Shown: positions 1 through 10,758 of the stretch, one piece after another | How positions within the stretch are numbered: the stretch's first letter is position 1 | How the letters are laid out: every line of letters begins with the position of its first letter | From: Microbacterium flavescens | Lineage (GTDB): Bacteria > Actinomycetota > Actinomycetes > Actinomycetales > Microbacteriaceae | Direction of reading: 5' to 3' | NCBI RefSeq assembly: GCF_018588945.1 | Contig: NZ_JAFIWA010000002.1 | Coordinates: 248,001-312,000, forward strand | DNA: 64,000 bases | Program-made: the position numbers and the translations under genes | Notes under the pieces: model-generated | The model's input: only the letters and a program-made list of their open reading frames with translations | Told to the model about the DNA's origin: nothing | Databases searched by the model: none

Positions 1-176
1 TCACCGCGCTTGGATACACGGTCAGCCCTCCGCCGTCGCTGCAGGAGTTTCTTGACACGTTCAACACGCAGGACGCATGGTCACCCTTTGCGGAAGCGCT
101 CGCGACGGCGACCGAAGAGGAGTCCATCGAGGCCAACGCCGCGTGTCCGCAGCAACCGGATGATTGGTGGGGATGA
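1..176 (+). CDS. C-terminal fragment of an unidentified protein
   Basis: An open frame enters from the left edge and stops at TGA 174-176, giving the last 58 codons or so of a gene. The visible tail is acidic and ends in a Pro/Asp/Trp-rich stretch (CPQQPDDWWG). No family is recognisable from this piece. It lies 140 bp upstream of the exporter operon on the same strand and could be its first gene. That it is coding is inferred from the uninterrupted frame running off the edge and its plausible composition. Confidence 0.45.
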   Translation, partial: TALGYTVSPPPSLQEFLDTFNTQDAWSPFAEALATATEEESIEANAACPQQPDDWWG

Positions 177-316
177 GCGCCCACGCGCGAGGTGACGGGT
201 CGAGAAGACCTGGCACAGATTGCGATGACGTGGGTGAACGAGGTCGCATACGCTCGATCCATGGCGTCGAGGCACCCAGTTCACCACCGCGCGCAGCGAC
301 GTAGGGGGAGGCGCCC

Positions 317-1429
317 TTGAGTGACGCCACCGATCAAGCGCCCAAGACCACGACGGCGCAGCGCCGCCGGTGGTGGCCGATGGTCATCGCGATTGTCCTC
401 GCTGCAGTTGTCGTGGGAGCCGCCGGTTGGGCCGCGGCCACGGTGCTGCGGCCCGCCGACGACCCGCTCGACGCCACCGCCTTCACGTACGTCACGGTCG
501 AGCCGGGATCGGTCGGGTCGAGCATCAACCTGAACACCGTGGCGGAGTGGACTCCGACGCCGGTGGGGTCGAACCAGGCAGCGGGAGTGGTCACCGGGGC
601 TGCGGTGCAGCCCGGCGATCAGGTGTCGCAGGGCTCGGTGCTGTATACGGTGAACTTGCATCCCGTGGTCGTGGCGCAGGGCGAGGTGCCGGCGTTCCGT
701 GCGATAGGCCTCGATGCGCAGGGCGCTGATGTCGCCCAGCTTCAGGGGATGCTCCAGTCCTTGGGTCTATACAACGGCGCCGTGGACGGCAAGGCGGGAT
801 CGGGAACCGTGCAGGCGATCAAGGCCTGGCAGAAGTCGCTGGGTGTGCCGCAGACCGGCACCGCCGAGCTCGGCGACGTGATCTTCGTGCCGTCGCTGCC
901 CACCCGGGTCTCGCTCGACTCGAAGGTGATCGCGCGAGGGAAGAGCGTGTCGGGAGGCGAGGAGGTCCTTCTGGGGCTCCCCTCCGCACCCACGTTCGTC
1001 TTGCCCGTCACTGAAGCTCAAGCCGGGATGATCCCGACAGGCACGCAGGTGCAGGTCACGTCTCCCGACGGGTCGATATGGGATGCCGTGTCGACCGATC
1101 AGGTGGCCGACGCCGAGACGCAGACGATCACTGTGGGGCTGGCGGGTCCCGACGGCGGTGTCATCTGCGGCGACTCGTGCGGGCTCGTTCCGGTGACGGG
1201 CGAGGCGATGCTGTCGTCCGTCATCGTTACGGTACCCACCGCCGGCGGGCTCGTCGTCCCGTCGGCGGCGCTGGTGACGGATGCCGGGGGCGAGGTCGCG
1301 GTGGTCGACGAGGCCGGCGCGCGCTTGCCAGTGACTGTGGTGACTTCGGCCAGGGGAATGTCGGTCGTTGAGGGCGTCGAGGGGGGTACCCGTGTGCGCG
1401 TCCCCGCGGTCGAGGGAGGCGGCGGGTGA
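317..1429 (+). CDS. Membrane-anchored efflux adaptor with peptidoglycan-binding domain
   Basis: 370 aa. A cytoplasmic N-terminus rich in Arg is followed by one membrane segment at about residues 20-43, then an extracytoplasmic region. Residues about 131-178 form a PG_binding_1-type repeat (LQGMLQSLGLYNGAVDG, then a helix with AIKAWQ). The flanking parts resemble the lipoyl/barrel-sandwich region of HlyD/MacA-like membrane-fusion proteins. The TTG start at 317 is chosen because GGGGGAGG (303-310) sits 6 nt upstream. The stop overlaps the GTG start of the ABC ATPase, so the three genes to 3263 form one operon. In Gram-positives such adaptors pair with MacB-like ABC exporters; the substrate is unknown. 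Confidence 0.8.
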   Translation: MSDATDQAPKTTTAQRRRWWPMVIAIVLAAVVVGAAGWAAATVLRPADDPLDATAFTYVTVEPGSVGSSINLNTVAEWTPTPVGSNQAAGVVTGAAVQPGDQVSQGSVLYTVNLHPVVVAQGEVPAFRAIGLDAQGADVAQLQGMLQSLGLYNGAVDGKAGSGTVQAIKAWQKSLGVPQTGTAELGDVIFVPSLPTRVSLDSKVIARGKSVSGGEEVLLGLPSAPTFVLPVTEAQAGMIPTGTQVQVTSPDGSIWDAVSTDQVADAETQTITVGLAGPDGGVICGDSCGLVPVTGEAMLSSVIVTVPTAGGLVVPSAALVTDAGGEVAVVDEAGARLPVTVVTSARGMSVVEGVEGGTRVRVPAVEGGGG

Positions 1430-2166
1430 GCGCACACGCGGACCCTGATGCGTCGGGGCGTTTCGTCTCGCTTCGCTCGCTCAACGACCGGGGAGAGGCG
1501 TTCGACGAGCGGGATGGTGATCCTGGCACGCCGCGGCTGGAAGCGCGTGACATCGTCTTCGAGTACACCGCCGGCACCCGGGTGCTCGACGGTTGGTCGG
1601 CGGAGTTCCCGGCGGGATCGATGAGCGCGCTGACCGGGCCATCGGGGCGAGGCAAGTCGACATTGCTGTACCTGCTCGGCCTAATGCTGCATCCCGCCTC
1701 AGGCGCGATCCTGGTCGATGGCGAATCCGTGGCCGGGATGCGCGACGCGCAGCGGGCTCGGTTGCGAGCGAGCCGTTTCGGGTTCGTGTTCCAGGACGCC
1801 GCGCTCGACCAGACCCGCACGGTGATCGACAATGTGACTGAGACCGCGCTGTACCGTGGCGAGGCCAAGCGGGACATCCGAGACAGGGCCCTCGAGCTAC
1901 TCGACCGGTTCGGCGTCGACGTGCCGCCCGACCGCAAACCCGGCCAGGTGTCCGGCGGACAGGCTCAGCGCATCGCACTCTGCCGAGCGTTGCTGAATGC
2001 TCCCGCCGTACTGCTCGCAGACGAACCCACGGGAAACCTCGACCCCGCGACATCCGTTCTCGTCGTCGAAGCGATGCGCGACCATGCCCGCACCGGCGCT
2101 GCCGTGATCGTCGTCACCCACTCGCCCGAGGTCGCCGCTGCGTGCGACGCGGAGATCCGACTGTGA
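1426..2166 (+). CDS. ABC transporter ATP-binding protein (MacB/LolD type)
   Basis: 246 aa. It has Walker A GPSGRGKST, a Q-loop in FVFQDAA, signature VSGGQ, Walker B LLADEPTG and the H-loop VVTHS, all intact. The family normally starts close to the beta strand before Walker A; here there is an N-terminal extension of about 35 residues. Within it, residues about 11-22 (GRFVSLRSLNDR) are encoded by a dispersed 31-bp repeat (1459-1489) also present, inverted, in dnaX. The GTG start overlaps the adaptor stop, and the stop overlaps the permease GTG start. It should energise the FtsX-like permease. A later start that drops the repeat is possible but no better start codon plus ribosome site is evident. 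Confidence 0.85.
   Translation: MSAHADPDASGRFVSLRSLNDRGEAFDERDGDPGTPRLEARDIVFEYTAGTRVLDGWSAEFPAGSMSALTGPSGRGKSTLLYLLGLMLHPASGAILVDGESVAGMRDAQRARLRASRFGFVFQDAALDQTRTVIDNVTETALYRGEAKRDIRDRALELLDRFGVDVPPDRKPGQVSGGQAQRIALCRALLNAPAVLLADEPTGNLDPATSVLVVEAMRDHARTGAAVIVVTHSPEVAAACDAEIRL
1459..1491 (+). repeat. Dispersed 31-33 bp element inside the ABC ATPase gene
   Basis: The block beginning CGTTTCGTCTCGC and ending CTCAACGACCGG is the reverse complement, with one mismatch, of the element at 23512-23542 in dnaX. It is read in frame as RFVSLRSLNDR in a non-conserved N-terminal extension. No other copy was seen in the window outside dnaX. Confidence 0.85.
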
Positions 2167-3263
2167 CGCGCCCCGGTGAGCTGATCCGCGAGGCGATCGC
2201 GACCGCCAGGTCGCAGCCGGTGGCATCGGCACTCACCGTCTTCATGGTCGCAGGGATGATCCTCGCGGTCATGCTCACTACTGGGCGTACCGTCGGCGCC
2301 GAACAGGAGGTGCTCGGCTCAATCGACTCGGCCGGCACTCGGTCGATCACGATCCGGGCCGAGGAGGCCGCGGGAGTCACGAGCGACGTCCTCGAGCGGA
2401 TCGCGCACATCGACGGCATCGAGTGGGCGGGCGCGTTCTCCACCGCGATCGACGCGACCAACACCCTCGTCTCCGACGGCACCCGCGTACCTGTGCGCTT
2501 CGCCTATGGGAACGACTTGGAGCGGCTCGGCGTCCCCGCGGACTCGCCGCTGCCTGGCCAGCTCGCCTATGCCGCCCCAGGCGCCCTCGACCAGCTCGGA
2601 CTCGTCGACGATGTCGGCGCCCTCACCCTCACGACCGGCGCCGACTTCGCGGTGGCCGGCACGTTGGCCAGTCCGGAGTTCCTCGCGGCGCTGCAGCCTT
2701 TGACGCTCATTCCCCGTCCAGACGCGACGGGTGAGGAGGCGGTGGGCGTGCTAGTGGTGATTGCCGATCGTCCCGACCTCGTGGCCCCCGTCAGCGATGC
2801 GGTGCTCTCGGTGCTCGCTCCCGCCGACCCGAGCAAGATCACGGTCGAGACGAGCGAAGCCCTCGCGCAGCTCCGGGCCCTCATCCAGGGTCAGCTGGGG
2901 AGCTTCTCGCGCGGGCTGGTCCTCGGACTACTCGCGCTCACAGGAGCCCTCGTGGCCGTCCTCCTCTACGGCCTCGTGATGATGCGTCGCAAGGATTACG
3001 GCCGCCGCCGCGCGCTCGGCGCCACCCGCGGCCTGATCGTCGCCCTCCTCATGACTCAGACCGCTGTGCTCGCCGCGGCGGGCATCGCCGTCGGCACGGT
3101 GGCAAGCGCAGTGATCCTCTTCGCCTCGGGCGACCCGCTCCCTGGAGTCGCCTTCACCACCTCCCTCGCCGTCCTCGCCCTCTGCACGGCGATCGTGGCG
3201 GCGCTCCTCCCGGCGATCGTCGCCAGCCGACGCGAACCTATCCGGGAATTGCGCGTCCCGTAG
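2163..3263 (+). CDS. FtsX-like ABC transporter permease
   Basis: 366 aa from GTG 2163, which overlaps the TGA of the ATPase (GTGA). The layout is the MacB/FtsX type: one membrane segment near residues 21-40, a large extracytoplasmic domain of about 200 residues, then three C-terminal membrane segments (from about 255) with a cytoplasmic loop carrying the RRALGATRG coupling motif, ending in RREPIRELRVP. The GTG at 2142 would give seven more residues but lies deep inside the ATPase gene. It forms the channel/mechanotransmission part of the exporter with the two preceding genes. Confidence 0.85.
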   Translation: MTRPGELIREAIATARSQPVASALTVFMVAGMILAVMLTTGRTVGAEQEVLGSIDSAGTRSITIRAEEAAGVTSDVLERIAHIDGIEWAGAFSTAIDATNTLVSDGTRVPVRFAYGNDLERLGVPADSPLPGQLAYAAPGALDQLGLVDDVGALTLTTGADFAVAGTLASPEFLAALQPLTLIPRPDATGEEAVGVLVVIADRPDLVAPVSDAVLSVLAPADPSKITVETSEALAQLRALIQGQLGSFSRGLVLGLLALTGALVAVLLYGLVMMRRKDYGRRRALGATRGLIVALLMTQTAVLAAAGIAVGTVASAVILFASGDPLPGVAFTTSLAVLALCTAIVAALLPAIVASRREPIRELRVP

Positions 3264-3783
3264 AAGCGCCATGGGCCCTCCGGTGAGCGGATTCGCGATC
3301 AGATTCGTCGCCGCATTCGCATTGGCGATCGCGGTCGGGGAACTAATGCCGAGAACGCTGTTACCGCCGCCTCGGGAATATGGCGCTCGCGACGGCCAGC
3401 ATCGCGGCGTTGCGGCCGGCTCTCTTCGCAGGGCGCCAGTAACTCGTTGGCGAACTGCGAGTCCCGTGGAGACACCTTGTGATGAACCCAGGGCACTCGA
3501 TTTACGCGCGATCTGCGTCAACGAACTTGTCGATCCATGTCCGGATTCCCATCGGAATCTCTTCGATCGCGCTCACCGCATCGGCTGCGCCTGTACGGAG
3601 TCCGAGTGCACCCCATCGACAGTCAACTGTGTGGCGTGAGCAGCGCCCTATTGTTGCGCGAACGGCGAGTTCCTTACATTTCACTATTGGCAAGTTCGCG
3701 CCATTGTTGGGGCTATCGCAGCATGCAAGTATGAGCGCGCAACGACGCAGTCGACAGCTGCGCGAAGACGGAAAGGTCGATAC
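3264..3783. other. 520-bp non-coding interval, left part of accessory region
   Basis: No gene could be supported. Several short frames are open on both strands but none has a convincing ribosome site or recognisable domain. The right half (about 3480-3780) is visibly less GC-rich than the flanks, marking the transition into the accessory region. The promoter of the protease gene should lie near 3700-3780, but no clear -10/-35 pair was identified. Confidence 0.6.
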
Positions 3784-4965
3784 ATGAAGCAATGGCGCTT
3801 GCGGGTCGGGGTCGGACTTATCACAGTAGGTGCGCTGGCTCTGGTCAATCCCGCCGCGTCGCTGGCCGCCCAGAATCCAGATGACGTACCCGCGCCGGAG
3901 CTCAATTCCGTGTACCCGATCACCCCCGAGCAGATGCAGGACTATCAATCCTTCGCTGCGAGCGAGGGAATCTCTGTTGACGAGGTCATCCAGCGTTTCA
4001 GCGGGCAGCACGAGTTCTTGGCTGCGGTTGACCAGGTACGGTCAGCCCCCGGGGATGTGGTGGTACGGGCTGCGTGGGGCAACGGGTCGGGAAGCATTCA
4101 CGTGAAACCCGGTGGTGCAAACGCCGCGCAAGCTGCTGCAGTTACCGCGGGCGCGGACATGGACGTGCTGGTTGCAGATCTCCGCGGCGAGGTAGCGCAG
4201 GCCGCTGTGGTGGACCAGTACGCGGGTACGCTTCAGGCCGCCGGCCAGTCGGGGTTTCAGGTGAGCTACGACGTCTTTACGAACACAGTAAATGTCACGA
4301 CGTTCAGCGAGCCCGATGCGGCGGCTGCCGAATCCGTCCTCGCGGCGGAGGCGAGTGCACTCCTCGATGCCGAGGTTGGCACCGTGAACGTCGTGGTGGC
4401 AGCCGCTGACGAATCACAAACCCCCGCGCCCGATGCGCGTGGTGGGATGGGCTACGCCGGTTGCACAGGCGCTTTCATCGTGCGCCAGTCGACCAACTAC
4501 TTCATCTCCACTGCGAGGCATTGCTTGACAACTCCGTCCACGTACGACGGTGCGTCGGTGAGCACGAGCATGAGCGCGATCGCGTCCGGCCATGACCTTC
4601 GAAGGACTCGACTGTCGGGCAGCCACCCAGCGACCTTTCGTTGGAGCTGGGGCAGCTACCGAACCGTCAAGTCATACGGCAACCCGACGATAGGAATCCT
4701 TGCGTGCAAGTTCGGTGTGACGACTGGGAACGGGTGCGCCACAGTAGTGGGCGTTGATTGGTGTGCTGTGTACGAGAACTTTCCGAGATTCTGCGGTCTG
4801 GCTGCGATGTCCGGGATCCTCACCAAGCCTGGCGACTCGGGCGGTCCGTGGTTCACGGGTTCGAAGGCGCTTGGCATCCACTCAGGACGCAGTGGGGCAA
4901 GTTCCGTTTTCACGAAGATTGGGCTCCTTCCCGGCCTTCTCGGCGTAACGGTGGTCACTGGTTGA
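3784..4965 (+). CDS. Secreted S1-family serine protease with pro-region
   Basis: 393 aa preproprotein. Residues 1-29 are a signal peptide (KQWRLR, hydrophobic core, ASLAAQ). About 180 residues of pro-region precede a chymotrypsin-like domain starting near GCTGAFIV (226). The histidine motif STARHC gives His246 and the serine motif TKPGDSGGPWF gives Ser352; Asp271 in SGHDLRR is the likely third member. Cys pairs 227/247 and others fit streptogrisin/alpha-lytic-type proteases. ATG 3784 follows a GAAAGG site (3770-3775). The long pro-region is usual for this family, where it acts as folding chaperone and inhibitor. It is followed within 3 bp by a lipoprotein gene. Confidence 0.85.
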   Translation: MKQWRLRVGVGLITVGALALVNPAASLAAQNPDDVPAPELNSVYPITPEQMQDYQSFAASEGISVDEVIQRFSGQHEFLAAVDQVRSAPGDVVVRAAWGNGSGSIHVKPGGANAAQAAAVTAGADMDVLVADLRGEVAQAAVVDQYAGTLQAAGQSGFQVSYDVFTNTVNVTTFSEPDAAAAESVLAAEASALLDAEVGTVNVVVAAADESQTPAPDARGGMGYAGCTGAFIVRQSTNYFISTARHCLTTPSTYDGASVSTSMSAIASGHDLRRTRLSGSHPATFRWSWGSYRTVKSYGNPTIGILACKFGVTTGNGCATVVGVDWCAVYENFPRFCGLAAMSGILTKPGDSGGPWFTGSKALGIHSGRSGASSVFTKIGLLPGLLGVTVVTG

Positions 4966-4967
4966 AC

Positions 4968-5393
4968 ATGAAGCCGCAACGCCTCGTTTTTACCGCGGTC
5001 GTCGCAGCGTTCGGTCTGCTCCTAGTGGCGTGCCAACAACCACAAGGCGGCGGATCCCTCTCTGTCGAGCATTCGGGGGGCATCACCTTCCTACGCTCCG
5101 ATGGCCACAGTGACGCCCCTGACATCTATTACCAGGGCACCGTGACAATTGGTCCAGGCGACTGCCTCTACGTCGAATTCCCGGGTGAGGCGCAGGAACT
5201 CGTGATCCTCGACGACGACACTGAAGTCACAGCCGACGGTCTCATCACGCCGGAAGGCTTCGAAGTGGCCTACGGCGAGCAAGTCAACGTTGTCCGCACG
5301 AACGCGGGCCACTACGACATGGAGATCGAGGGCGTCGAGGGTTGCGACGACAGCGGCCGGTCGGGTATCGCCTTCGTCGGAGATCCTCGGTAG
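4968..5393 (+). CDS. Small secreted lipoprotein, function unknown
   Basis: 141 aa. Residues 1-22 form a lipoprotein signal with lipobox LLVAC (Cys22), so the mature protein should be lipid-anchored on the outside of the membrane. The rest is acidic, predicted all-beta by eye, with two further cysteines (in GPGDCLYVEF and VEGCDD). ATG 4968 follows the protease stop by 2 nt, so the two are probably cotranscribed and translationally coupled; no separate ribosome site is obvious. It could be an accessory factor or immunity/inhibitor partner of the protease, but nothing in the sequence proves this. Confidence 0.7.
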   Translation: MKPQRLVFTAVVAAFGLLLVACQQPQGGGSLSVEHSGGITFLRSDGHSDAPDIYYQGTVTIGPGDCLYVEFPGEAQELVILDDDTEVTADGLITPEGFEVAYGEQVNVVRTNAGHYDMEIEGVEGCDDSGRSGIAFVGDPR

Positions 5394-5563
5394 AGCACAT
5401 TTCCCGCCCGTCGTGGTTCCCGCGTCTGTCGCTGGGGCGGGGTGACGTGATGCAGCGCCGCATTCGCGGACGCGAGTCGTTGATGCGACTCCGTAAGGAA
5501 CCGCAGGCTCGAAGCGACTACCGAGTGACGGCGCGTGGCCGTCATCACCCGAAGGAGTCCGCG

Positions 5564-5716
5564 ATGCGTGTCTCGCCTTACTACTCAATCAACCCCACCG
5601 ACCCCGATGTTCACCACGTCCACGATGATTGCCCGAGCGGCCAGCAGATCCCGGACCTCAACAAGCGGTCGGGGACGAACAACTGGCCGCTGTGCAAGCA
5701 CTGTCGAGACATGTGA
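5564..5716 (+). CDS. 50-aa protein with a Cys/His metal-binding pattern
   Basis: The ATG at 5564 has a strong GAAGGAG site 7-8 nt upstream (5550-5556). The protein has His17, His18, His20, Cys23, then Cys44 and Cys47 in CKHC, and a conserved-looking core NKRSGTNNWPLC. Small proteins with this H-x(2)-C ... RSGT ... PLC-x2-C layout recur in bacterial accessory DNA (recalled, not searched); a single structural zinc site is a reasonable inference. Function is unknown. It stands alone between the lipoprotein and the sigma factor gene, on the same strand. Confidence 0.7.
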   Translation: MRVSPYYSINPTDPDVHHVHDDCPSGQQIPDLNKRSGTNNWPLCKHCRDM

Positions 5717-5906
5717 CAGAACGACTCGCGTGGGCCGGCAGGGTGTTCTATTGCCGGCCCAGCGGGTCGCTGCCGGAGTTCAAGGGGCGGTGCTTCCTCT
5801 GTTGTGGCCGCCGGAGCCACTTCCTTACGACCTGTGGATAAGCGGTGGGCGGGTCGAGACACGCGGTTACTGTTGGACTGACCTTCGCTGCAAGTCCGGA
5901 GCAACT

Positions 5907-6437
5907 GTGAACAGGAAGACACCTTTCGAGGAGCACCTGTTCCGAGACGCTGTGTTTCGTGAAATGTTCGCATCTAACTTTTCACGGGTCGTCCGGTACG
6001 TGGAGGGACAGACCTCCAATCGTGCCGTTGCCGAGGACATCGCGGCTGAGGTGTTTCGTGTGGCTTGGCAGAAGCTCGACCCGGAGGAGCCCTTCGGGCT
6101 CCCGTGGCTCATCCGGACCGCGATTCACAAGACCCGGGACTATCAGCGGCGGGAGTACCGCGGTGCAAGGGTGATGGCCACCCTGTCGTTGCTGACAGCG
6201 GTGTCTGGCACCGGGGTCAGCAACCTCGACCGCCTGGCCCTACACGAGGCGATGTCGAAGCTGAGCGAAAATGACCTTCAGATTGTTCGACTCACATACT
6301 GGGACGGCTTGACTGCAGGAGAAGTAGCCCTAGTCCTGAGGATGAAGGAAGGCGCCATCTGGACGCGATTGCACCGAGCGCGGGCGCAACTTCGGGCAGC
6401 TCTCTTGGAGCCGGTGAAGGCAGGCAGCCATGAATGA
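5907..6437 (+). CDS. ECF-type RNA polymerase sigma factor
   Basis: 176 aa. Region 2 is visible at about residues 15-85 (VVRYVEGQTSNRAVAEDIAAEVFRVAW, then LIRTAIHKTRD) and region 4 at about 115-165 (LSENDLQIVRLTYWDGLTAGEVA, then WTRLHRARAQLRAAL). GTG 5907 is chosen because CGGAG precedes it at suitable distance and the protein then begins just before region 2. The stop overlaps the ATG of the next gene by 8 nt, the standard sigma/anti-sigma arrangement. It probably directs transcription of its own operon, including the secreted protein at 7419, and perhaps the protease upstream. Confidence 0.88.
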   Translation: MNRKTPFEEHLFRDAVFREMFASNFSRVVRYVEGQTSNRAVAEDIAAEVFRVAWQKLDPEEPFGLPWLIRTAIHKTRDYQRREYRGARVMATLSLLTAVSGTGVSNLDRLALHEAMSKLSENDLQIVRLTYWDGLTAGEVALVLRMKEGAIWTRLHRARAQLRAALLEPVKAGSHE

Positions 6438-7422
6438 CGACGAACTCGAGCGCCTCCTTCGAGAGAGCAATCCAGCGAGCACCCCATCGGAGGTGGGACT
6501 CAGCGCAAACCATCGCGCAATCCTCGAACGCATCGTCGCTGAGCCCGTCGGGCGAAGGCGCTCGCCTGCCCGACTCACGCTCATGGTCACGGCACCGCTA
6601 GCAGCGGTGCTGGCCATATTCGTTGTCGTCATTTCGGTCTTCCAGCCTTTCGCCCCAGCGCCCGCCGCCGCCTTTGGGCCCCCGCCACTCGAATACCAGC
6701 CGACAGGTCGCAGCGCGGAGGAGGCGATTCGCTTGGCCCAGGGACGCCTTGAACAGCAGCAGAGTGTGACCGAACCTCTGCGGCAGGCCGTAACCACTGC
6801 ATGGAACCTGACGATCGCCGAGGATGGGCAAGCCGAGCCCACCGTCGTTATTTCGCCTTCGGTGACCGAGCTCGAATGGGCAGCGGACCTGTCTGGCTCG
6901 TTGAAGGTCGTTGCCGGCGAGCCATACTTCGCGGACGGCAACGACGTCGCCGTCGCCACCGACGAGGCTAACGAGGCTGGAACGGTCCTCGACGAGCGCA
7001 CGTTCGCACCCGGTGAGTTCCCCGCGCAGATTCCGGACGCCGCCAGCCTCGAGCCGGCCGCTCTCGATGCTCTGCTCGCCGCGTTCGCGCCCGACCGGTC
7101 ACTCGCGGGCGATGCGTTCCTCGCAATGCATGCGGTTTTGAACGAGTGGACGCTGACGAACGCCCAGCACTCTGCGCTGCTCCATGGTCTGTCCGACTAC
7201 GAGAACATTACGGTCCTCGGAACCACCACAGACCGTGCGGGCAGGGATGTGGTCGGGTTGAAGGCGGCGACGAGCAGACCTGGGCAAGATGCGGTGCTCC
7301 TCGTCTCAGCCTCGTCCGGACGCATCGTTGGACTCGAGAGCAGCGTCACCTCGAACGACAACTCTCTCGAGGTGCCGGAAGGCACAGTTATCTCGTACAC
7401 CCTTTGGAAGGACCAAGAATGA
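6430..7422 (+). CDS. Single-pass membrane protein, probable anti-sigma/sensor (CU044_5270-like)
   Basis: 330 aa. A cytoplasmic N-terminal segment (about 1-50) is followed by one membrane helix at about 51-72 (TLMVTAPLAAVLAIFVVVISV) and a roughly 255-residue extracytoplasmic domain. This resembles the actinobacterial CU044_5270 family that follows ECF sigma genes. No zinc HxxxCxxC anti-sigma motif is present in the N-terminus, so the interaction with the sigma factor is inferred from position and topology only. It overlaps the sigma gene by 8 nt and its TGA overlaps the ATG of the next gene. Confidence 0.7.
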   Translation: MNDDELERLLRESNPASTPSEVGLSANHRAILERIVAEPVGRRRSPARLTLMVTAPLAAVLAIFVVVISVFQPFAPAPAAAFGPPPLEYQPTGRSAEEAIRLAQGRLEQQQSVTEPLRQAVTTAWNLTIAEDGQAEPTVVISPSVTELEWAADLSGSLKVVAGEPYFADGNDVAVATDEANEAGTVLDERTFAPGEFPAQIPDAASLEPAALDALLAAFAPDRSLAGDAFLAMHAVLNEWTLTNAQHSALLHGLSDYENITVLGTTTDRAGRDVVGLKAATSRPGQDAVLLVSASSGRIVGLESSVTSNDNSLEVPEGTVISYTLWKDQE

Positions 7423-7880
7423 AACGCACCCTCGTCACCGTTGCCCTCGTGACGGCGCTCGTCGTAGGCGCGCCGACATCGGTTGTTGCAGCAGAGGAGT
7501 CCGGGCAAGACGTGCATCCGTCCGTCGCGTTTGCTCTCGACGCCGAGCCTGGCGGGGTCGCGACTGGTTACGGCTCGGCGGAGTGGCCGGAGCTCGGAAT
7601 GACGCTCGAGGTGTCTCTCGTTCGTGCCGTTGGCACATGCGCGACGGGCAGCATCTGCGCGTACTCCGAAGGCGGCATGGCCGGGACGAAACTCACCTGG
7701 ACCACATGCGGTTCGAAGTCGACGAGCGCTCTGAGCACAGTTGGCTCGATCGCCAACGCGCGCTCGAGCGGAACGCTCAGTGCGCGCGAGGGTACGACCG
7801 TGCGCGCGAGCGCTGCCGCCAACACCTACGCCAACGTTCCGTTGGCCTATCGCACAGCCATTACCAACGTGTACTGCTAG
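7419..7880 (+). CDS. Secreted cysteine-containing protein, peptidase-inhibitor I36-like
   Basis: 153 aa. Residues 1-25 are a signal peptide ending in VVAAEE. The mature protein has Cys74, Cys80, Cys97 and a C-terminal Cys153. The stretch GSICAYSEGGMAGTKLTWTTCG matches the C-x-Y/S-x(5-7)-G ... W..CG pattern of the peptidase inhibitor I36 / Streptomyces metalloproteinase inhibitor family. ATGA overlap with the membrane protein gene makes it the last gene of the sigma operon. An inhibitor role is only suggestive: many I36-domain proteins are uncharacterised, and the serine protease upstream is not the classical target class. Confidence 0.65.
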   Translation: MKRTLVTVALVTALVVGAPTSVVAAEESGQDVHPSVAFALDAEPGGVATGYGSAEWPELGMTLEVSLVRAVGTCATGSICAYSEGGMAGTKLTWTTCGSKSTSALSTVGSIANARSSGTLSAREGTTVRASAAANTYANVPLAYRTAITNVYC

Positions 7881-8108
7881 GCGGACTCGTCGTCGGCGTC
7901 CACCGGCTTGGATGCGGGTAATCTCCTCGTCGATGAGATGCCGTGTAAACAGGACCCGTTAGAACGTTGAGCCACGGAGTGTCTGTCGGGGCGGTGTCTT
8001 GGGTGCATGTCCGTGGGTGATAACGCTCGATGAGCGCCTCGCCGACGACGATCACCGGCACGGTTGAGTACGTCCGCAGACGTGTTCGAAAACAGTCGCG
8101 CAATGCCG

Positions 8109-8297
8109 CTAACGTGGTGAGGCTTCGACGGCGAAGATCCGCAGCAGCGCCGCGCGGGGGATCATGCGCCGTGGGCCAAGCTGAACGCTGGGGATTGTCC
8201 CGCGGTCGACGCCCGCCTTGATGGTGCGGTAGTCGACGCCGACGAGGATCGCGGCATCCTTGAATGTGAGTGCGAGGGAAGTATCTGACCGGTTCAT
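8109..8297 (-). CDS. Excisionase-like HTH DNA-binding protein
   Basis: 62 aa, single helix-turn-helix of the MerR/Xis (HTH_17) type: FKDAAILVGVDYRTIKAGVDRGTIPSVQLGPRRMIPRAALL. Such proteins act as recombination directionality factors or small regulators. ATG 8297 starts directly at the domain; an in-frame start at 8387 would add 30 residues of low-complexity sequence across the promoter region and is less likely. The ribosome site (AGGAA touching the ATG) is poor. It diverges from the HTH gene at 8426 and shares a 128-bp control region carrying two direct repeats. Confidence 0.65.
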   Translation of the reverse strand: MNRSDTSLALTFKDAAILVGVDYRTIKAGVDRGTIPSVQLGPRRMIPRAALLRIFAVEASPR

Positions 8298-8310
8298 TTC
8301 CTGTCCAATC

Positions 8311-8370
8311 TCTGAGCCACCTATGTCAGCACGCGCCCACACTGTACACCAGTCTGAGCCAGATGTGTCA
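8311..8370. promoter_or_regulatory. Direct-repeat operator or integrase arm sites
   Basis: Two 18-bp copies, TCTGAGCCACCTATGTCA (8311-8328) and TCTGAGCCAGATGTGTCA (8353-8370), match at 14 positions and are spaced 42 bp, about four helical turns. They flank a reverse-strand -10 box TACAGT (8346-8341): the upstream copy covers the -35 position and the downstream copy lies just after the expected start site. They look like binding sites for the excisionase-like protein, a repressor, or the integrase arm domain. An extra inverted repeat TGTCA-N11-TGACA lies at 8366-8386. Confidence 0.6.
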
Positions 8371-8390
8371 TGAATGCTTCGTGACAAACC

Positions 8391-8419
8391 TTGTTCATCG
8401 TTTTCCGGCCTGAGATACT
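8391..8419 (+). promoter_or_regulatory. Promoter of the HTH gene at 8426
   Basis: TTGTTC (8391-8396), 17-bp spacer, GATACT (8414-8419), followed after 6 nt by the ATG at 8426, which implies a leaderless transcript. It faces away from the reverse-strand TACAGT promoter. Confidence 0.55.
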
Positions 8420-8425
8420 GCCCTC

Positions 8426-9007
8426 ATGGTGAAGCTCGCGACAGCGGATATCAGCGACGATCGTGTCGAGGTGGGCAACGGCGTGAGCATCCCTCGGGCA
8501 TGGACGGCGATTCTCCAAGGAGAGCCGGATGTCCCCGGAACGATTCGCGTGGACATCACGTTCGATCGCAAGCTCGGGCGCAGTGCCGCGGCACTCGTCA
8601 GCGTCGGGCGCAAAGCGGAAGGTGATGAGGTGACGAGCCTGACGCTCCGCGAGGTGCGAGTCCAGTGGGCGGTGCAGGCAACCGGCCTGACGGTTTCCAC
8701 AGTTTCCACCGGCACGGACCACTCGGAGTCTGGCGCGGCGTACCTTATGCGCATGCGCGACCGGAAAGAGCGGACGACGGAAGAGACCATCGCCGACGCG
8801 GCGACCATCTACCGTCTCGCGGCGGCGGTGAGCATGCCGCCGTTGAAGGCTGTCGCCGACAATTTGAGCGTGAGCCAGAGCACCGCGACTCGGCTAATGA
8901 ATCGCGCCCGCGTCGATGGACTCGCGGAAGGCATCAGGCTGCCGAGGGCCGATGCCACCGGACCGGTCGTCGGCGCACCGGGGCCGACGGGGCCGTCGAT
9001 CAGCTGA
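8426..9007 (+). CDS. Helix-turn-helix protein, integrase-associated
   Basis: 193 aa. The N-terminal 110 residues are predicted mostly beta and unassigned. The C-terminal part has a clear helix-turn-helix, PLKAVADNLSVSQSTATRLMNRAR (about 149-172), of the kind that recognises DNA in sigma-4/TetR-like proteins. The tail is Pro/Gly-rich. It is separated by 11 nt from the integrase start and is probably cotranscribed. A role in control or targeting of the integrated element is inferred from this linkage; the family is not one I can name. Confidence 0.65.
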   Translation: MVKLATADISDDRVEVGNGVSIPRAWTAILQGEPDVPGTIRVDITFDRKLGRSAAALVSVGRKAEGDEVTSLTLREVRVQWAVQATGLTVSTVSTGTDHSESGAAYLMRMRDRKERTTEETIADAATIYRLAAAVSMPPLKAVADNLSVSQSTATRLMNRARVDGLAEGIRLPRADATGPVVGAPGPTGPSIS

Positions 9008-9018
9008 GGAGAAGCATC

Positions 9019-10248
9019 ATGGCTCGACGGGTGAACCACGAGGGCACACTCTCGCCGTACACGACGCCCTCGGGTGAGATCCGCTACCGGATCGCGTACT
9101 GGATCGTTCGCCCGGACGGTGAGTACGTGCGCCGCTTCCGCCGTGGCTTCGAAACCGAGCGGTTTGCGCGCGAGACGCTGGCCGACCTCCAGGTTGACAT
9201 CCGCCGTGGCACTCATATCGAGGAGACCCGCGAGACGCTGAACGCCTACTCAGCGAAGTACTTCGACGGGCTGCGGGTGCGTCCGACGACGCTCGCCGGC
9301 TACCGAAAGCACTACCGCGTCCATGTCGAGAGCTCGTCGCTAGGGCGCACGCCGCTGAGCGACATCTCGAAAGATCAGCTCAACCGGCTCTATCGGCAGC
9401 TTGAGCGCGACGGGCGAAAGGACCGCGGACACATCGGTGAGCCGCTGGGGCCGGCGACCATCCGGCACATTCACGTGCTGCTGTCGCAGATCCTGCAGCA
9501 CGCACTCGAGGATGGTCTCATCCGGCTGAACCCCGCCAAGCGGGCATCGCCTCCCACCAAGATCGATGCGGCGCCGCCCGAGATGATGACCTGGTCGGCC
9601 GAGGATGCGCGACTCTTCCTCGAGTGGTCCGAGTCCACTGGCGACTACCTCTGGCTGGCGTGGCTGACGCTGCTCGGCACCGGCATGCGCCGCGGCGAGA
9701 TCCTTGGCGTGCGATGGAAGGACGTCGACCTCGATAACAACGTGATCACGATCGCGCGCGCGATGTCGTACGTGAAGGAAGCCGGCAAGAAGCCGGTCAT
9801 CGACTTCCGTCAGACCAAGAGCGGCCGCGTGCGGAACGTCGACATCGACGCTCGGCTGGCGCACGCGCTGCGCACGAAGCGGGATCTGCTGCGGGCGGTC
9901 GCGCCTGAACTCGCGCGCGGCGAGCAGTTGATCTTCTGTAACCGGTTCGGCCGGCCGCACAACCCGACGCAGTTCTCGCGGCAGTGGCGCGAGCGGGTGA
10001 ACAAGGCCGCGGACGCGCATCCCGATCTCGACCGGCTTCATCTCCACGAGCTTCGGCACACGCACGCGACGCTGCTGCTGCGCGCCGGCGTTCATCCGAA
10101 GATCGTCTCGGAGCGGCTCGGGCACGCTGACATCCAGACAACGCTCAATACGTACTCACACGCGGTGCGCACTTTGCAGCGGGGCGCTGCGGACCTTGTG
10201 GGGGAGCTGCTGGCTCCCGTCCGGGCCGACGCGCTCACGACGAGTTAG
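9019..10248 (+). CDS. int: Tyrosine recombinase / phage-type integrase
   Basis: 409 aa. An N-terminal arm-binding region (about 1-60, with IRYRIAYWIVRPDGEYVRRFRRGF), a SAM-like core-binding domain (about 70-180) and a catalytic domain. The catalytic residues are present: Arg224 in TGMRRGE, Lys268 region, His343 and Arg346 in HELRHTHA, His369 in LGHAD and Tyr379 in TLNTYSH. ATG 9019 follows GAGGAGAAG (9007-9015). Its 3' end lies 400 bp from the 3' end of tRNA-Ser(GGA), the usual geometry for an element integrated into a tRNA gene. The enzyme looks intact and could still be active. Confidence 0.9.
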   Translation: MARRVNHEGTLSPYTTPSGEIRYRIAYWIVRPDGEYVRRFRRGFETERFARETLADLQVDIRRGTHIEETRETLNAYSAKYFDGLRVRPTTLAGYRKHYRVHVESSSLGRTPLSDISKDQLNRLYRQLERDGRKDRGHIGEPLGPATIRHIHVLLSQILQHALEDGLIRLNPAKRASPPTKIDAAPPEMMTWSAEDARLFLEWSESTGDYLWLAWLTLLGTGMRRGEILGVRWKDVDLDNNVITIARAMSYVKEAGKKPVIDFRQTKSGRVRNVDIDARLAHALRTKRDLLRAVAPELARGEQLIFCNRFGRPHNPTQFSRQWRERVNKAADAHPDLDRLHLHELRHTHATLLLRAGVHPKIVSERLGHADIQTTLNTYSHAVRTLQRGAADLVGELLAPVRADALTTS

Positions 10249-10647
10249 TCCTCAGGAACTCTCAGACACGGCGCTTCTCCGACATCAGCGAATCAGCGAT
10301 CGGGCGGGGCGGAGTCCCGGGACCGTGGAATACCGGAGGCGCGAAGCGCCGAGGATATGCCGTCGAAAGCCCGGGACGCAGCCTCGCGCGGTCGCTACAC
10401 TCTCGCGGCGGAGAAGAGCCGGCACATTCCGAGCGACACAACAGATGCCTCAGAAGCGTGTCCGAAAACCGCTAGCTCCGCCCATGACATGAGCCAGCCA
10501 TGTCGCAACAGGCCAGTTCCACACGATCAGCGAACCGCGGAAAATCAGGCCTCTGGAGGGGTCGAAATCGGCCTTAACTGTGCCAGTAGGTGTGTCACGC
10601 GACCTGGACGGACGAAAAATCCCTTGAAAACACTGGGATCGGAGCGG
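10249..10647. other. 399-bp interval between integrase and tRNA-Ser
   Basis: No gene is supported. Short open frames (for example 10357-10674 on the plus strand) run into the tRNA and have no ribosome site. This is where the attachment-site junction and any integrase arm sites at this end should lie; no duplicate of the 8311/8353 repeat was seen here. Confidence 0.6.
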
Positions 10648-10732
10648 CGGAGGATAGGGGATTCGAACCCCTGAGAGCTTTCACTCAACACGCTTTCCAA
10701 GCGTGCGCCATAGGCCACTAGGCGAATCCTCC
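10648..10732 (-). tRNA. tRNA-Ser(GGA)
   Basis: 85 nt on the reverse strand. The acceptor stem GGAGGAT/ATCCTCC pairs perfectly, the T-loop is GGTTCGAATCC, and the anticodon loop CTTGGAAA places anticodon GGA at 10698-10696. A long variable arm, typical of tRNA-Ser, is present. CCA is not encoded. Its 3' end faces the integrase gene, so it is the probable attachment site. Confidence 0.95.
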
Positions 10733-10758
10733 GTGGCCCCGGAGGGCCGCAGACCATC

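Follow-up and report, generated by a model that had tools for sequence, protein, structure and literature searches.

A conserved three-gene operon within a six-gene block

We analysed a 64-kb stretch of the Microbacterium flavescens genome (contig NZ_JAFIWA010000002.1, positions 248,001 to 312,000; hereafter the window, from the 3.42-Mb genome G000), focusing on a run of genes around an extracytoplasmic function (ECF) sigma factor. Six plus-strand genes, all confirmed as real among the open reading frames (ORFs) of the window, encode a secreted S1 serine protease, a small lipoprotein, a microprotein, the sigma factor, a membrane anti-sigma-like protein and a protein related to the I36 family of protease inhibitors (Table 1). 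An earlier note on this DNA had described the six genes as lying on one strand and as compositionally distinct, and both the ORF coordinates and the base composition bear this out: segments of 3264-10248 have a G+C content of 60.6-66.6%, against 69.3% to the left and 70.5% to the right. We found that the conserved unit is smaller than this block. The sigma factor, anti-sigma and I36-like genes form a widely shared operon, and the six genes are not one conserved block.

Across 149 genomes of the genus, the anti-sigma-like protein had matches in 63 (71 places) and the I36-like protein in 48 (53 places). Fifty-two of the 53 I36-like places adjoined an anti-sigma match: 44 followed the anti-sigma gene and 8 preceded the sigma gene. 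The sole place without such a neighbour was in G052, where an apparent partial duplicate of the operon (L174, 1242-1655) holds a front region with the DNA site described below and an I36-like gene, with neither sigma nor anti-sigma. The anti-sigma gene stood beside the I36-like gene in all 30 named loci and the sigma gene was present too in 28; one of the two exceptions is on a contig that starts inside the anti-sigma gene. A sample of the family gave an I36 match in 13 of 199 genomes, three of them of this genus. The 11 loci from the ten genomes of other genera comprised eight with sigma, anti-sigma and I36 in this order, one with anti-sigma and I36, and two in which I36 alone was seen, once as a weak fragment; at least two of the fetched family loci (Pseudoclavibacter and Mycetocola) repeat named loci. 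Because the pair and the I36-like gene form so recurrent an operon, the sigma factor is likely to control the I36-like gene, as the earlier note had supposed. We regard the operon as a real variant of the ECF switch, one whose third gene is I36-like. No description of such an operon was found in a search of open-access papers, a body of literature that does not include the main ECF classification paper.

Table 1. Genes, candidate sites and adjoining features, in window coordinates
Feature	Position	Strand	Remarks
Candidate ECF-type site TGTAAGGAACTCGCCGTTCGCGCAAC, upstream of protease, directed away from it	3653..3678	-	Rank 1 of 127,938 positions
Secreted S1 serine protease with pro-region (streptogrisin/alpha-lytic type)	3784..4965	+	H246, D271, S352
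Small lipoprotein	4968..5393	+	Behind protease in window and genome G082; in I36 position in genome G095
Candidate ECF-type site CGTAAGGAACCGCAGGCTCGAAGCGAC, sense, ahead of microprotein	5492..5518	+	Motif search, matrix
50-aa microprotein, possible zinc site	5564..5716	+	H18, C23, C44-x2-C47 invariant
Candidate ECF-type site CGTAAGGAAGTGGCTCCGGCGGCCAC, upstream of sigma factor, directed away from it	5804..5829	-	Motif search, matrix; present in G095 too
ECF sigma factor, 176 aa	5907..6437	+	GTG start; Sigma70_r2 and Sigma70_r4_2 above cut-off
Membrane anti-sigma-like protein, ectodomain weakly LolA/RseB-like	6430..7422	+	NCBIfam CU044_5270 E 2.4e-16, below cut-off
I36-like (SMPI-related) protein, predicted beta-gamma-crystallin fold	7419..7880	+	N-terminal signal sequence (by eye); start overlaps anti-sigma stop
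Excisionase-like helix-turn-helix protein	8109..8387	-	TIGR01764 27.5 bits (cut-off 28.8), HTH_17 24.9 (27.0); both slightly under
ORF, function unassigned	8426..9007	+	G095 copy 92% identical
Tyrosine integrase, directed at tRNA gene	9019..10248	+	Phage_integrase 96.4 bits; G095 copy 98% identical
tRNA-Ser(GGA), probable integration site	10646..10732	-	tRNA gene call

Sequence and structural features of the operon products

The sigma factor was assigned to the ECF family on its matches to Pfam Sigma70_r2 (25.5 bits, cut-off 24.0) and Sigma70_r4_2 (45.7 bits, cut-off 25.7). The product of the next gene scored 60.4 bits over residues 27-301 against the CU044_5270 family (NCBIfam NF038083), for which the cut-off is 100; judged by its sequence it is a relative of this family and is not filed as a member. 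We regard it as a putative anti-sigma factor from its operon position and a predicted helix. In its AlphaFold2 model (predicted local distance difference test, pLDDT, 85.3), a short N-terminal part is followed by a single helix (residues 57-71), in a region of low confidence, and then by an ectodomain. We take this helix to be the membrane anchor, which would leave the ectodomain on the far side of the membrane. Fold matches of the ectodomain were LolA, MucB, RseB and LprG, with a best Foldseek E of 8.2e-5, TM-scores of 0.2-0.4, Z of at most 6.5 and a root-mean-square deviation (rmsd) mostly above 5 Å, a weak and at most suggestive resemblance to LolA and RseB. The arrangement recalls RseA-RseB and MucA-MucB envelope sensing in that a sigma factor is paired with a membrane anti-sigma-like protein whose ectodomain matches include RseB and MucB. 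It differs in that the RseB-like domain would here be fused to the anti-sigma factor instead of forming a separate protein, the structural scores are weak, and the operon adds a third, I36-like gene.

Since the third product scored 12.5 bits against Pfam Inhibitor_I36, below the gathering cut-off of 21.1, we call it I36-like. Among 28 members of its family that we scanned, 19 reached E<=0.01 with this Pfam model (best 1e-6), and the window protein was not one of them. Four cysteines are invariant in the family, and an N-terminal segment, HPDVAYAL..PGG..WPELGM, is conserved as well. In the structural model (pLDDT 86.6), residues 76-153 fit crystallins with a Z of about 8 and an rmsd of about 2.4 Å, and the fold matches were spherulin, clostrillin and gamma-crystallin, at a best Foldseek E of 0.06 and none below 0.001. 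The protein is thus predicted to have a beta-gamma-crystallin-type fold, and the calcium ligands of beta-gamma-crystallins, compared by eye with their motif, seem not to be conserved.

SMPI, a characterised I36 protein, inhibits metalloproteases through a disulfide-held reactive loop and is not known to inhibit S1 proteases. It was the only PDB sequence match to the I36-like protein at E<=1 (1bhu, E 0.32, over the stretch SCATGxxCAYSGxxLSG), and it too has a crystallin-type fold; 1bhu was absent from the best 50 matches listed in either fold search of the model. The two proteins also differ. C97 and C153 of the I36-like protein do not make the short reactive loop of SMPI, the conserved N-terminal segment is extra, some members lack a signal peptide, and the gene is genetically tied to an anti-sigma gene.

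A differing distribution of the protease

The S1 assignment of the protease rests on a Pfam Trypsin match (22.5 bits, cut-off 20.6). Its nearest solved relatives are of the streptogrisin/alpha-lytic type (2pfe, E 1.6e-8), with which it shares sequence family, catalytic residues and an N-terminal pro-region; it differs from them in its pairing with a small lipoprotein and its rarity in the genus. The three catalytic residues listed in Table 1 are conserved with the homologues in G082 and G065. Protease matches were found in 5 of the 149 genomes, two of them weak, and lipoprotein matches in 3. In G082 the protease and lipoprotein genes are adjacent, and this genome has no anti-sigma match. The microprotein matched in 10 genomes, and in 7 of these the match did not lie near an anti-sigma place; H18, C23, C44 and C47 were kept in 10 of 10 sequences compared.

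The earlier note had suggested checking whether the whole block co-occurs in other genomes, and had itself named independent distributions of the protease and the sigma operon as what would tell against its reading. The two distributions do differ. Set against the 48 genomes with an I36 match, the five with a protease match overlap only in G000, G016 and G065; the protease match is weak in G016 (E 2.8e-5), as is the I36 match in G065 (E 3.3e-5). Within the DNA stretches examined, no protease was found in any of the 30 named loci. These results, together with the differing distributions of lipoprotein and microprotein, lead us to reject the whole block as one conserved module.

They also bear on the circuit that the earlier note had envisaged, in which a secreted inhibitor, induced by the sigma factor, would keep the adjacent S1 protease in check or guard against it. 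Such a circuit would fit the proximity of the genes, the common DNA site ahead of the protease and the sigma operon, and the protease-like tail beside the operon of G095 (see below). Yet 45 of the 48 I36-bearing genomes have no protease match, the I36 precedent is inhibition of metalloproteases, and 10 of the 30 named I36-like proteins have no evident signal peptide. We consider the circuit very improbable and, in view of the phyletic mismatch, reject the I36-like protein as an antidote to this particular protease.

A shared DNA site ahead of protease, microprotein and sigma factor genes

A bipartite site, TGTAAGGA-N~12-G(C/A)NA(C/A), is common ahead of the sigma operons of relatives and precedes the protease, microprotein and sigma factor genes of the window. 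The shared motif that the earlier note had suggested looking for ahead of these three genes is therefore present at each of them, with the qualification that two of the three copies face away from the gene. The sequence TTCCTTAC occurs three times in the window, at these three gene fronts, where 0.14 copies were expected, and 7 times in the whole genome. Counted over wide regions ahead of operons, the hexamer CCTTAC/GTAAGG was found in 33 of 50 operon fronts, whereas 200 single-base shuffles gave 7.05 on average and 16 at most. When the sites were aligned, a second block, G(A/C)(C/A)A(C/A), appeared at +20 in both orientations. The full pattern GTAAGGAWN{12,13}GMVAM matched 80 times in the 149 genomes. 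Of these matches, 31 lay no more than 3 kb from one of the 71 anti-sigma places, where 0.08 would be expected if each genome is taken as 3.5 Mb. The other 49 matches were similarly frequent in genomes with an anti-sigma match (20 in 63) and without one (29 in 86).

All four pattern matches of G000 fall within 7.7 kb, and all three of G095 within 4.8 kb. The fourth G000 match, kept in G095, precedes a gene for an AraC-type regulator (HTH_18, 70.1 bits) that lies 1.8 kb left of the window and about 7.7 kb from the sigma factor gene. No TCCTTAC/GTAAGGA was found at the protease-lipoprotein pair of G082.

The geometry of the site, TGTAAG followed after about 16 nt by CAAC with A/T-rich sequence ahead, is that of an ECF promoter, TGTAAG being the -35 element. 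Sites in the sense orientation precede the microprotein gene in G000, G095 and G145 and 8 of 11 operons in which the I36-like gene comes first. At L192 and L195, from two other genera, the first block is in sense orientation ahead of the sigma factor gene and the second block reads GGAAA. Two sense sites in G097 (L175, about 2644, and L035, about 6273) precede genes for a CBM96-bearing secreted protein and an HSDR_N protein, and may point to a wider regulon.

The probable island and its sister in G095

The stretch from an efflux/ABC/FtsX cluster (317-3263) to the tRNA-Ser gene consists of the six genes, the excisionase-like gene, the unassigned ORF and the integrase. The block resembles tRNA-borne integrative islands in its tyrosine integrase facing an adjoining tRNA-Ser gene, its excisionase-like gene and its low G+C content, and differs from them in that the stretches compared yielded no second attachment site. 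The earlier note had not mentioned the excisionase-like, integrase and tRNA genes behind the block. There was no exact match of at least 11 bases between 10601-10735 and either 1-10590 or L173, and the left end may be further off or decayed; clear attachment repeats were absent from these stretches, and none of the 20 repeat families listed, out of 30, fitted. We conclude that the six-gene block probably sits on a mobile island. The cluster beside it encodes an efflux adaptor with a peptidoglycan-binding domain, an ATP-binding cassette (ABC) ATPase and an FtsX-like permease. By eye, some of the 40 adaptor matches are close to an anti-sigma place, at a distance of about 2.5 kb or less in G013, G002 and G043 (twice), and there is one in the G095 island as well.

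G095 carries the integrase, the excisionase-like gene, the microprotein, the sigma factor and the anti-sigma gene beside the same flanking genes as the window, with no protease match and no I36 match; a lipoprotein (71% identical) occupies the I36 position. At the junction, the I36 start gives way to ten codons that resemble the last ten of the protease (GLLCVTVVTG versus GLLGVTVVTG in the protease), and the lipoprotein comes next. These remnants suggest that the protease once adjoined the operon in the G095 lineage too. The frame of the G095 lipoprotein (L031, 6395-6530) runs on without a break from the I36 start codon, which looks as though the third gene had been swapped behind the same translational start. 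The link between protease and sigma operon, which the earlier note had drawn from proximity, thus gains backing as a regulatory one from the shared sites and this tail, as far as sequence comparison can tell, and finds none in block co-occurrence.

Alternatively, the block could be a chance accretion of cargo, with the shared sites being remnants of recombination and not of regulation. Islands gather unrelated genes, BLAST similarity between the window and G095 picks up again at 5493, at the microprotein site, and the partial operon duplicate of G052 carries the site. However, none of the 20 repeat families listed, out of 30, lies at 3670, which gives no sign that the protease site belongs to a longer repeat, and the lipoprotein follows a gene with a site in G000 and the anti-sigma gene in G095. 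Accretion by chance seems to us a distinctly unlikely account.

A proposed envelope-sensing switch with a local regulon

We propose, with somewhat better than an even chance of being right, that the locus is an envelope-sensing ECF switch on a probable mobile island, whose local regulon has recruited the protease-lipoprotein pair. The membrane anti-sigma protein, with its extracytoplasmic LolA/RseB-like domain, would hold the sigma factor until an envelope cue, from the fold probably an amphiphile or a misplaced lipid or lipoprotein, frees it. The freed sigma factor would transcribe from the bipartite sites, in many relatives including that of its own operon, and the third gene would yield an exported I36/beta-gamma-crystallin protein. 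In the window lineage, the microprotein, the protease-lipoprotein pair and the AraC-type regulator would have come under the same site.

Several observations weigh against this proposal. The resemblance of the ectodomain to RseB is weak, and I36-like proteins without an evident signal peptide, their cysteines kept, were seen by eye at L104, L107, L109, L111-L114, L116, L118 and L119. As 19 of the 71 anti-sigma places lack an I36 match, the sigma/anti-sigma pair can do without the I36-like protein. The motif itself falls short in several ways: 17 of the 50 operon fronts are without the hexamer, the full pattern occurs within 3 kb at only 24 of the 71 anti-sigma places, and WTCCTTAC is not over-represented genome-wide (13 matches versus 17 for the reversed control), only its position being unusual. 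G065, which has a protease homologue and, on another contig, an anti-sigma match, showed no TCCTTAC/GTAAGGA near the protease. Since the pattern was learned from operon fronts, the tests on operon fronts and on proximity to anti-sigma places are partly circular. A matrix whose training left out G000 and G095 placed the window sites at ranks 1-3 of 127,938 positions (scores 25.1, 19.7 and 18.1; next 12.0), although these sites were already known when it was built. In six single-base-shuffled 64-kb controls the best scores were 14.4-18.7; the top window score is well above these, the second barely so, and the third lies under two of the six. It is therefore the protease site, together with the occurrence of three sites within 2.2 kb, that carries weight.

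Orientation is the remaining difficulty. In the window, the sites ahead of the sigma factor and the protease point away from the gene, and no good sense-strand copy was found before either (best matrix scores -1.9 and, at 3725, 6.8). Among 33 motif-bearing regions, 10 had sense sites only, 7 had away-facing sites only and 16 had both. Because of these mixed orientations, the motif could be the operator of another regulator, an activator or repressor that co-regulates the genes from either orientation in place of the sigma factor. Such an operator would also explain why the distance to start codons varies, and candidate sigma-A-like -10 elements (GGYTACNGT) were seen by eye downstream of the site in near relatives. 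The two-block spacing and the A/T-rich sequence ahead nonetheless fit an ECF promoter, sense sites precede the operons and genes named above, and no other regulator gene was seen to travel with the operons, although this was not a systematic search. We therefore judge the operator unlikely, though with an appreciable chance.

The away-facing sites may reflect divergent transcription or the action of a second regulator. We looked for a gene running leftward from the protease site and rejected it, as the minus strand showed only unconvincing short ORFs. At L010 and related sigma fronts with divergent sites, a hairpin-like GGGTGTCGTCTC...GAGACGACACCC was noticed by eye just past the outward site, and a short outward RNA is possible at such fronts.

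Within the proposed switch, we infer that the I36-like protein works with the sensor or as general protection and is no antidote to the adjacent S1 protease. It could keep proteases from degrading the anti-sigma ectodomain, or other proteins of the surface, and so provide negative feedback, or it could be a general protective secreted effector; we hold both roles tentatively, as equally possible. More doubtful is a dedicated third component of the switch that binds the LolA-like ectodomain and controls proteolysis of the anti-sigma factor. Were this the case, a protease-inhibitor fold would have been domesticated as a signalling subunit, with its export signal lost in one lineage.

Together, these results identify a recurrent ECF sigma/anti-sigma/I36-like operon in Microbacteriaceae, and the candidate site makes its regulon directly testable. 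They also give a regulatory context to I36-type proteins, which are usually labelled protease inhibitors by similarity alone.

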